Positions 960-2,760 of a DNA stretch of 20,434 nt are shown in pieces; positions within the stretch are counted from its first letter, which is position 1; every line of letters starts with the position of its first letter. A model generated the notes under the pieces. It saw only the letters and a list, made by a program, of their open reading frames with translations. It had not been told where the DNA came from and made no database searches. The stretch spans positions 1 to 20,434 of the IMG/VR virus record IMGVR_UViG_3300025890_000205, one strand, 5' to 3'. The translations under genes and the position numbers were made by a program. The DNA is from a virus.

Positions 960-1208
960 TTAATTCCTCAATACGATTTGATCTAATTTGTTTTCGATAC
1001 GTATCATATGATCTTCCATACGTTGGACCATTACTGATAGGTCAGCTTTAGATACGTAGTCTTGCGCTACATTTAATTCAATAGCATCAATACGTCTGTC
1101 AAGACCACTAATGCGGTCATGCACGTTATTTATTCTGTTGTGTAATCTGTTATTTAAAGCTGCCCCACCACCAATCAAAGCGATAAGAGCAGTGACTGCT
1201 GCTTCCAT
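960..1208 (-). CDS. Small protein with hydrophobic N-terminus and coiled coil
   Basis: An 82-residue protein. Residues 3-18 (AAVTALIALIGGGAAL) are hydrophobic and could be a short membrane anchor. Residues 20-82 are a charged amphipathic helix with heptad-like spacing (RINNVHDRISGLDRRIDAI, MEDHMIRIENKLDQIV), so a coiled coil is likely. Such an architecture beside a holin candidate is reminiscent of an inner-membrane spanin, but the anchor is short and no outer-membrane lipoprotein partner with a lipobox is visible. I recall similar proteins in cyanophages as unknowns. The ATG overlaps the upstream stop as TAATG; there is no clear Shine-Dalgarno. Confidence 0.75.
   Translation of the reverse strand: MEAAVTALIALIGGGAALNNRLHNRINNVHDRISGLDRRIDAIELNVAQDYVSKADLSVMVQRMEDHMIRIENKLDQIVLRN
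964..969 (-). promoter_or_regulatory. Ribosome binding site for the 53-residue gene
   Basis: GAGGAA on the minus strand with a 6-base spacer to the ATG at 957. It is one of the clearer Shine-Dalgarno sequences in this cassette and supports a gene of only 53 codons. Confidence 0.6.
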
Positions 1209-1840
1209 TATTTAAGAGAGACAATAGGTACTATGTCATGGCACAGTACTTCTACGCGACTGCCAGGACGAAAGGTAAAACCAGCTTTCATGATTTCTGT
1301 ACATTTAAGAGCACGTACTAGCTCATAGTCCAACCTCATCTTCTGTTCGTGTCTACGTGCTATCTGTTTACACGTTTCAACCATGCCGCCATCTAACGGT
1401 ACAGAAAAACCTATCTGCACACCAAAGTTTTGGGTACGTTGATAGGTATCTGTATGAACATCACCGCCCATATAAAATGGTTGGAATGTCATCGTTGTTC
1501 CGTTACAGGAGTTACTACCAGCAAAGACTTGTCTGGAAGGTGCTCCATTATTTTGGAACTGCACGGCTTGGTTAGTAACGTTACCTGTTGCAGCCGCTAC
1601 AGGGTTTGCAGTATTAGATACGGTGGGTTCTTCTGCGTAAGCTGGTCCTATTGCGAGAAGACTGATAAGGAAGTAGTAGTAGAAACTTGTTGGATAGCTT
1701 CGGTAATGTCGATTGTTTCGATCACTCCTGCTGCTCTGTCTACAATTTCCAGTTGGAACTGCTCGCCAGAATTTGTCACTGAAAATGTTGTGGATCCATC
1801 TTCGATTGAACCACTTGGTGTTACGTTGGTTCCAGACCAT
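1208..1840 (-). CDS. Exported four-cysteine protein, gene overlapping its neighbour
   Basis: A 210-codon frame whose first 193 bases lie out of frame inside the 3' end of the preceding gene. Residues 53-69 form a hydrophobic segment ending in a signal-peptidase-like site (LLAIGPAYA then E70). The part before it (1-52) is unusually long and basic: 11 Lys/Arg against 2 acidic residues. The predicted mature part, 70-210, has four cysteines (112, 157, 180, 200), enough for two disulfides in the periplasm, and a C-terminal motif RVEVLCHDIVPI. I checked the codons from 1840 to the hydrophobic core and found no other ATG, GTG or TTG, so 1840 is the only standard start. GGAGGAG sits 10 bases before it. 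A non-standard start nearer the signal segment, or a frameshift from the upstream gene, cannot be excluded. Function unknown. Confidence 0.65.
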   Translation of the reverse strand: MVWNQRNTKWFNRRWIHNIFSDKFWRAVPTGNCRQSSRSDRNNRHYRSYPTSFYYYFLISLLAIGPAYAEEPTVSNTANPVAAATGNVTNQAVQFQNNGAPSRQVFAGSNSCNGTTMTFQPFYMGGDVHTDTYQRTQNFGVQIGFSVPLDGGMVETCKQIARRHEQKMRLDYELVRALKCTEIMKAGFTFRPGSRVEVLCHDIVPIVSLK

Positions 1841-1998
1841 GCTTTGTAATCTCCTCCGTACACTTCAGTTGCAATTGTACGGTCAATATCAATAGTTGTA
1901 GTTGTGGTAGATTGCATGCTACCTTGTGTAAAATTAGGTGTAACTGATTGTGCTGCAGCAGGTGTTGCAAGCAAAAGCAAAGCCAAAAGTTTTTTCAT
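1648..1998 (-). CDS. Exported Thr/Ser-rich protein, conserved in cyanophages
   Basis: A 116-residue protein with a textbook signal peptide: MKKLLALLLLATPAAAQ, cleavage expected after AAA. The mature part is Thr/Ser-rich and beta-prone (QGSMQSTTTTTIDIDRT, WSGTNVTPSGSIEDGSTTF, STTTSLSVFSQ at the end). I recall closely similar proteins in marine cyanophages with no known function. The start at 1998 overlaps the upstream stop as ATGA; an in-frame ATG at 2154 would add a non-signal extension and is rejected. There is no lipobox cysteine. The export signal and the place in the lysis region suggest action in the periplasm or at the outer membrane, which is inference. Confidence 0.78.
   Translation of the reverse strand: MKKLLALLLLATPAAAQSVTPNFTQGSMQSTTTTTIDIDRTIATEVYGGDYKAWSGTNVTPSGSIEDGSTTFSVTNSGEQFQLEIVDRAAGVIETIDITEAIQQVSTTTSLSVFSQ
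1851..1857 (-). promoter_or_regulatory. Ribosome binding site inside the upstream gene, for the start at 1840
   Basis: GGAGGAG on the minus strand with a 10-base spacer to the ATG at 1840. It also encodes a Gly-Gly pair in the YGGDY of the upstream exported protein, so its presence could be due to that protein rather than to selection for initiation. Confidence 0.45.
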
Positions 1999-2180
1999 TG
2001 TTTTTTCTCTCGTGTAATAGCGTAAGCTGTTAAAGTACCTGATAAAATTGAAGCAACATATGTAGGATCCATCTTGCTCATCCATCCGGCGTAGGAGGCA
2101 GTGAGGAGTCCTGCGGACCAGACAAGTATGAGGAATCTGACGAGTCCATTCCACCTTTCGTTTTTGTGATCTTCTCCCAT
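1995..2180 (-). CDS. Candidate holin: 61-residue protein with two membrane helices
   Basis: A 61-residue protein with a charged N-terminus (MGEDHKNER), hydrophobic segments at about 13-30 (LVRFLILVWSAGLLTASY) and 40-55 (TYVASILSGTLTAYAI), and a charged tail (REKKQ). Two helices with short charged ends fit a class II holin, and T7 places its class II holin (gp17.5) in the same position after the fibre. Against this: no sequence signature proves holin activity. The gene begins inside the upstream proline-rich gene, overlapping it by 103 bases in another frame, and has no recognisable Shine-Dalgarno before the ATG. Its end is coupled to the next gene by ATGA. Confidence 0.6.
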   Translation of the reverse strand: MGEDHKNERWNGLVRFLILVWSAGLLTASYAGWMSKMDPTYVASILSGTLTAYAITREKKQ

Positions 2181-2599
2181 GTTTTTTTAAATACAGGTTT
2201 CATAATTTGAACTAAACGTTTAAATAATGCTGTTGCAGTTAAAGTAGCTGCAACTGATACTGTAGCAGTCGTACCTGCTGTAATAAGTATTTCATTTTGC
2301 GGAATAGGTATAGAAATACCTGTACCGGGTATGTTAATTTTTTGTATTAAAGTAGGTTGTGGGGGAAGGATGGGTATTTCAACCTTTGGTTTACTTGGAA
2401 TAATTTGTTTTGTTTTCTTAGGTAATTTATCTTTTGGTTTCCCTTTAATACCCGGAGGTGGTCTAAGGTCGCTAGGAGGCACCACCAAGGGCTTGTAAGA
2501 CGGTATGTCTGCCCTTGGTACTTCCAGTATAGGTGCAGGTAATTGAAGCGGTTCAGGGAGCGTTATAGAGGGAAACAATGGTGGCTCACCTAAGTCCAT
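2078..2599 (-). CDS. Proline-rich membrane-anchored protein, conserved in cyanophages
   Basis: A 173-residue protein. The first 100 residues hold about 26 prolines (for example LPEPLQLPAPILEVP and PPSDLRPPPGIKGKP), with a Lys-rich stretch at 51-72. One hydrophobic helix at about 103-126 (EILITAGTTATVSVAATLTA) is followed by a basic helix (FKRLVQIMKPVFKKTWEKI) and a Ser/Pro tail at 150-173. I recall cyanophage proteins beginning MDLGEPPLFP with this same helix; no function is established. A proline-rich rod attached to a membrane helix recalls TonB-like or tail-tip spacers, but that is analogy only. The start overlaps the upstream stop as TAATG. The last 34 codons overlap the holin candidate. 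Confidence 0.75.
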   Translation of the reverse strand: MDLGEPPLFPSITLPEPLQLPAPILEVPRADIPSYKPLVVPPSDLRPPPGIKGKPKDKLPKKTKQIIPSKPKVEIPILPPQPTLIQKINIPGTGISIPIPQNEILITAGTTATVSVAATLTATALFKRLVQIMKPVFKKTWEKITKTKGGMDSSDSSYLSGPQDSSLPPTPDG

Positions 2600-2760
2600 T
2601 ATTTAGACGGAAATAATCCGTTACGGACAAATTCTACTGCTTTATCATCGATATCATTATCGGTTGATTCAGCAAGCTTAGTAAGCATATCTACAATAAG
2701 TAGTTTAACTTTTTCAGACTGTAGGAATGAAAATAGGATTGGTCGGATTAGTGTAATCAT
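2599..2760 (-). CDS. Conserved 53-residue cyanophage protein, function unknown
   Basis: The product starts MITLIRPILFSFLQSEKVKL and ends AVEFVRNGLFPSK. It has an amphipathic, moderately hydrophobic N-terminal half and an acidic middle (ESTDNDIDDKA). I recall similar short proteins in marine cyanophages near the fibre genes. The reading frame runs without interruption from an ATG at 2760 to a TAA that overlaps the next ATG as TAATG. The 12-base leader separating it from the upstream gene is made only of A and T, and there is no Shine-Dalgarno. The first 14 residues might associate with a membrane, but the charged residues make a true transmembrane helix doubtful. Confidence 0.68.
   Translation of the reverse strand: MITLIRPILFSFLQSEKVKLLIVDMLTKLAESTDNDIDDKAVEFVRNGLFPSK

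Follow-up and report, generated by a model that had tools for sequence, protein, structure and literature searches.

A secreted-protein gene that begins inside another, in a different reading frame, in marine and freshwater cyanobacterial viruses

Introduction

In overlapped two-component spanins (P2 type; embedded in lambda and T7), two exported proteins are encoded by genes of which the second starts out of frame inside the first, and the embedded start is often misannotated (PMC6139136). The same survey lists many cyanophages as spanin-less and raises the point that the host outer membrane may be fragile (PMC6139136). The gene pair described here, ORF1 and ORF2 of a 20,434-base IMG/VR virus record (the window, that is, the whole stretch analysed), has the same arrangement but comprises neither a lipoprotein nor a signal-anchor protein: the signal peptide of ORF1 is of the cleavable type, and ORF2 carries four cysteines but lacks a lipobox.

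The ORF2 product also recalls the ESPR of autotransporters in carrying a long basic N-terminal extension ahead of a hydrophobic core. It differs in that this leader has no ESPR motif, its charge is explained by the overlapping gene, its length runs from ~10 to ~100 residues across homologues, and the 141-residue mature protein is no autotransporter or two-partner passenger, matching only phrog_1755 and phrog_848.

By sequence, ORF1 and ORF2 belong, or are clearly related, to known families, DUF6322/T4-GC_236 and phrog_1755 plus phrog_848/T4-GC_235, respectively, the T4-GC designations being the family names in T4-like cyanophage records. A cluster including T4-GC 235 and 237 occurs in all but one of the compared cyanomyoviruses, with its function given as unknown (Sullivan et al. 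2010, PMC3037559). The available parts of that paper describe neither the overlap nor the start site, and our literature search found no existing description of the overlap. In hundreds of marine and freshwater cyanobacterial viruses, one secreted-protein gene begins inside another, in another frame. Comparison of about 240 loci indicates that ORF2 truly starts at the ATG at position 1840 of the window; we estimate at roughly 0.9 the probability that this start site is correct and, jointly, that the leader it entails is a passenger, with function left out of the estimate.

Loci and Counting

The comparison covers 239 loci from four IMG/VR scans and phage records, a locus being defined by an ORF1 ending in SLSVFSQ or a close variant and by the hydrophobic core of ORF2 lying over that end in the -1 frame. 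Positions are given as n, the number of codons counted back from the ORF1 stop. The 83 window-like genomes used to assess the start codon at n=63 were picked by mature ORF2 only, blind to the start, while open-frame and ribosome-binding-site counts refer to 73 distinct window-like genomes; the genomes are related, and the counts are therefore not independent. Relatives of ORF2 were found in 453 phage records and those of ORF1 in 51 (E 0.01), from T7-like and T4-like cyanophages. A host-side search returned eight matches in genome contigs, MAG or single-cell assemblies of mixed phyla, and these look like captured phage contigs.

Gene Layout

The main genes of the window lie on the minus strand and encode a tail protein, an endolysin-domain protein, a 2007-residue protein of tail-fibre size, a run of small proteins and a small terminase (390-638). 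Features of the gene pair are listed in Table 1. ORF1 most likely starts at the ATG at 1998 (MKKLLALLLLATPAAA) and not at the mechanically assigned GTG at 2154; its end at 1648 includes the TAG, and ORF2 is read in the -1 frame relative to it.

A sequence-only reading of the window had proposed that two exported-protein genes overlap out of frame by 193 bases, that the ATG at 1840 is the only standard start of ORF2, with no ATG, GTG or TTG from there to the hydrophobic core, that GGAGGAG stands 10 bases before it, and that residues 1-52 contain 11 Lys/Arg and 2 acidic residues, followed by FYYYFLISLLAIGPAYA. Each of these points was confirmed, including the boundaries at 1648 and 1840. An assembly error hiding an ATG is excluded, as independent assemblies agree.

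Table 1. Features of the ORF1/ORF2 locus in the window.
Feature	Positions	Strand	Remarks
ORF1, 116 aa	1648..1998	minus	predicted Sec signal peptide MKKLLALLLLATPAAA, then Thr-rich domain ending SLSVFSQ
ORF2, 210-aa precursor	1208..1840	minus	four invariant Cys in mature part
ORF1/ORF2 overlap, 193 bases, out of frame	1648..1840	minus	free of ORF2-frame stops
ORF2 ATG	1838..1840	minus	formed from the last base of an Ala codon (GCA) and the TG of TGG, the only Trp codon in ORF1
GGAGGAG ribosome-binding site, 10 bases 5' of ORF2 ATG	1851..1857	minus	perfect in the window
52-residue leader of ORF2 (MVWNQ...SYPTS)	1685..1840	minus	length variable in relatives
Signal-peptide hydrophobic core and signal peptidase I-like site, FYYYFLISLLAIGPAYA	1634..1684	minus	straddles ORF1 stop codon
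Mature ORF2, 141 aa, from EEPTVSNT	1211..1633	minus	
Upstream small membrane protein (DUF6450), holin-like size	1995..2180	minus	4-base overlap with ORF1 start
Downstream gene, N-terminal hydrophobic segment and coiled coil	960..1208	minus	shares one base with ORF2 stop

Elsewhere in the window, the 876-residue product of 13211-15841 matches phrog_90 ('endolysin') across ~600 residues, and 2078-2599 encodes a proline-rich protein with one hydrophobic segment (phrog_9426). The 960-1208 product has a weak match to phrog_462 ('lipoprotein'), though it contains no Cys.

The Two Proteins

The window ORF1 scores 20.7 bits against DUF6322 (PF19847), below the Pfam cut-off of 30.6, and 41 of 52 aligned ORF1 homologues match the same family at E 0.1 (best E 1.1e-42); the protein was assigned to phrog_650. 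Structure prediction gave a long beta-hairpin (pLDDT 87), for which Foldseek retrieved the upper tail of phage Andhra (8egr, E 4.8e-4) together with beta-pore stems. With Z at most 4.4 in a second comparison, an identity as a collar protein or pore stem was set aside and the fold treated as a common long hairpin. A link to curli secretion was likewise rejected, the CsgF match being sub-threshold (E 0.0083 for the full and 0.0044 for the mature protein) and found in one of 52 homologues. Searching the PDB by sequence with ORF1 found nothing.

Mature ORF2 matches phrog_1755 (E 3e-47) and phrog_848 (E 4.6e-36), both of which are matched by all 57 members. The window ORF2 gave no match in Pfam and nothing below E 0.1 in a PDB sequence search; its structure model is poor (pLDDT 63), and Foldseek returned nothing below E 0.15 for it. 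A signal-peptidase-like site lies just past the ORF1 stop in 206 of 209 distinct ORF2s, most commonly AYA before E; the sites are of the AxA type, and +1 is E, Q or N in most cases and never Cys.

Judged by these sequences, ORF1 and ORF2 are phage families without an assigned function that form a predicted Sec-exported pair, and signal peptidase probably cuts ORF2 after AYA to leave a 141-residue, four-cysteine envelope protein acting with ORF1. In the mechanism that we propose, ribosomes would make ORF1, and ORF2 would be initiated separately at an internal start codon in the -1 frame. Its signal peptide would be encoded by the 3' end of ORF1 in the shifted frame, with the mature part beginning just past the ORF1 stop.

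Stop Avoidance in the Overlap

With the ORF1 protein fixed and its codons redrawn, the ORF2 frame of the window stayed open over 62 codons in 458 of 60,000 draws. Across the 73 distinct window-like genomes, the frame is open in 71, against 0.7 expected with the ORF1 protein fixed. Chance falls far short of explaining the overlap.

Over the 16 codons upstream of the ATG in window-like genomes, the ORF2 frame has 0.12-0.135 stops per codon (0.135 at n=68-64); the rate then falls to 0.005 at n=62-58 and to zero from n=49. At positions where a third-base T would make a stop, its frequency drops from 72% upstream of the ATG to 1.3% within the leader. Among freshwater T4-like genomes, stops still occur in the n=29-22 bin and are absent from n=19. 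Selection alone, read from this boundary, locates the translation start.

Conservation of the Internal Start Codon

The base 5' of the TGG at n=63 is A in 81 of the 83 window-like genomes and C in the two exceptions; for comparison, A is the third base of 39% of Ser codons elsewhere in ORF1. The conserved ATG at the 1840 position that the sequence-only reading had proposed looking for in homologues is thus present. Synonymous variation at the start codon is 0.08 of that expected, compared with 0.83-0.89 (~0.85) upstream, and this conservation is not due to relatedness alone, because neighbouring third positions are near saturation. Freshwater T4-like genomes have ACA-TGG at n=20 in 71 of 71 cases, and in two loci of the window-like set that lack the ATG (L036 and L045), the sole start is a GTG at n=36. 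An ATG, GTG or TTG is present in the open frame at all 239 loci. The GGAGGAG of the window is imperfect in most relatives: a GGAG motif or better is kept in 27 of 73 and no GGAG-like motif is seen in the other 46; the P-SSP7-type GTG starts also lack one. A literature search found no ribosome profiling of cyanophage infection. Selection therefore places the start of ORF2 at the internal ATG in the window's clade, where the 52-residue leader would be translated, as had been proposed.

A -1 ribosomal frameshift that fuses ORF1 to ORF2, leaving ORF2 without a start of its own, would account for an ORF2 that lies in the -1 frame and overlaps the ORF1 tail without exception. Under such a mechanism, however, a conserved start codon is unexpected. 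An in-frame XXXYYY heptamer occurs in the open region of only 4 of 239 loci, at three different positions; none is present in the window, in agreement with the first inspection of its overlap. Moreover, P-SCSP2 (L269, 1741-2575) has the same arrangement in the +1 frame, with an ORF2 homologue that begins over the ORF1 tail at its own ATG. We consider a frameshift to have almost no chance of being the explanation.

It is also very improbable that ORF2 starts at a non-AUG codon near the hydrophobic core, the ATG at 1840 being incidental. For an ordinary signal peptide, 10-20 residues ahead of the core suffice, synonymous constraint on ORF1 increases once more at n=22-17 and n=9 (0.50 over n=21-9, which corresponds to the n-region and the start of the core), and ORF2 starts at n=20, 21 or 36 in other clades, some of them with GTG or TTG. 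In window-like genomes, however, ORF2-frame stops nearly disappear exactly at the ATG, so that stop avoidance begins at n=63, the A of this codon is kept as described above, and the codon at n=36 is ATT, GTT or CTT and is not conserved. Reduced synonymous variation, proposed as a check over the whole overlap, was found at the start codon and at n=21-9, whereas the leader body is near normal.

Origin and Nature of the Leader

Internal initiation at the ATG explains the length of the leader through the codons of ORF1. An NTG in the -1 frame requires the next ORF1 codon to begin with TG, that is, to encode Trp or Cys. The last 100 residues are free of Cys in all 209 distinct ORF1s and contain a single Trp in 125 of them. 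The window ORF1 has no Cys and one Trp, which leaves the ATG at 1840 as the one possible ORF2 start inside it; with the start 63 codons back, the 52-residue leader is carried along.

ORF2 starts at n=63 in window-like loci, n=36 in P-SSP7-like, n=21 in P-SSP3-like and n=20 in freshwater T4-like loci, where the Trp at n=20 provides the start, and at n=54, 96 or 105 in marine T4-like phages. Some related clades use GTG or TTG, at another Trp codon. Judging from this co-variation, the ORF1 Trp appears to be kept for the overlapping gene. The locus offers a natural case in which the amino-acid sequence of one gene dictates where an overlapping gene can start, at Trp codons only, while the remaining overlap frame is held open by synonymous choice.

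Whatever the start position or frame, the signal peptide lies inside the ORF1 tail in every relative. Homologues without the leader, the case named in the sequence-only reading as contrary to it, do occur: P-SSP3, freshwater T4-like phages and P-SCSP2 start ORF2 18-21 codons before the ORF1 stop, and in P-SCSP2 the ATG 18 codons before that stop yields an ordinary signal peptide of ~23 residues. These homologues therefore indicate that the position of the signal peptide in the ORF1 tail is kept and the leader is not.

The leader had been likened to the extended basic signal regions of autotransporters. That it is a functional region of this kind, slowing or targeting export, would agree with its translation as indicated by selection, its strongly basic character, its presence throughout the window's clade and the still longer leaders of marine T4-like phages. 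Its net charge of +9, however, equals that of codon-shuffled open ORF1 frames (9.7 ± 2.4, SD), with clade means of 7.9 and 8.5. Synonymous variation of ORF1 in the leader body is near normal (0.72-0.79 vs 0.83-0.89 upstream, with overlapping intervals), which leaves room for weak constraint there. Pfam models, ESPR included, gave no match to full ORF2 at E 0.1, and homologues dispense with the leader. A dedicated export function is thus improbable. The selection tests support a leader that is a tolerated passenger, basic because of the ORF1 codons from which it is read, and not an evolved export signal.

Possible Function of the Pair

The pair sits between the gene of tail-fibre size and the small terminase, beside the DUF6450 small membrane protein. 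In T7, the holin and Rz/Rz1 lysis genes occupy that same interval. An envelope or lysis role is plausible for the pair, and gene position hints, as a first guess, at action on the host envelope through lysis or outer-membrane disruption. The occurrence of the pair in both T7-like and T4-like cyanophages points to a host-envelope function common to the two as a candidate.

A more specific proposal, compatible with internal initiation of ORF2, is that the pair forms a spanin-like system that disrupts the outer membrane of cyanophage hosts. It draws on the overlapped exported genes in this interval, the small membrane protein encoded upstream, the weak likeness of the ORF1 hairpin to pore stems, and the listing of P-SSP7, Syn9, P-HM1 and other cyanophages as spanin-less (PMC6139136). 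Against it, that likeness reaches a Z of about 4, there is no spanin-family match, and the pair is absent from Syn5 and P60, two further phages on the spanin-less list. No o-spanin lipobox Cys was found in the last 100 residues of the 209 distinct ORF1s or at +1 of ORF2. As for i-spanin features, ORF1 has a cleavable-type signal peptide and predicted beta structure in place of a signal-anchor topology; a hydrophobic N-terminus and a coiled coil are found in the 960-1208 product. We regard a spanin-like role as unlikely. Similarly unlikely is the broader version, in which the pair would be the missing, non-lipoprotein spanin-equivalent of many marine T7-like/T4-like cyanophages, with a start that has moved from Trp codon to Trp codon.

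Consequences for Annotation

Of 18 public records inspected, 10 place the ORF2 start after the signal peptide, two omit ORF2 and six start it inside ORF1. The signal peptide is thereby lost from many database entries, and the protein looks cytoplasmic though it is probably exported. The comparison fixes the likely true N-terminus of this family in hundreds of cyanophages.

The deposited annotation of S-SSM7 (L265, 1090-1600) lacks ORF1, apparently as a result of calling ORF2 with a start within ORF1. In P-GSP1 (L006, 1690-2280) and P-SSP3 (L009, 1714-2343), ORF2 is continuous, in the same frame, with a sequence homologous to the small protein of window positions 2599-2760, which represents gene fusion or stop loss.
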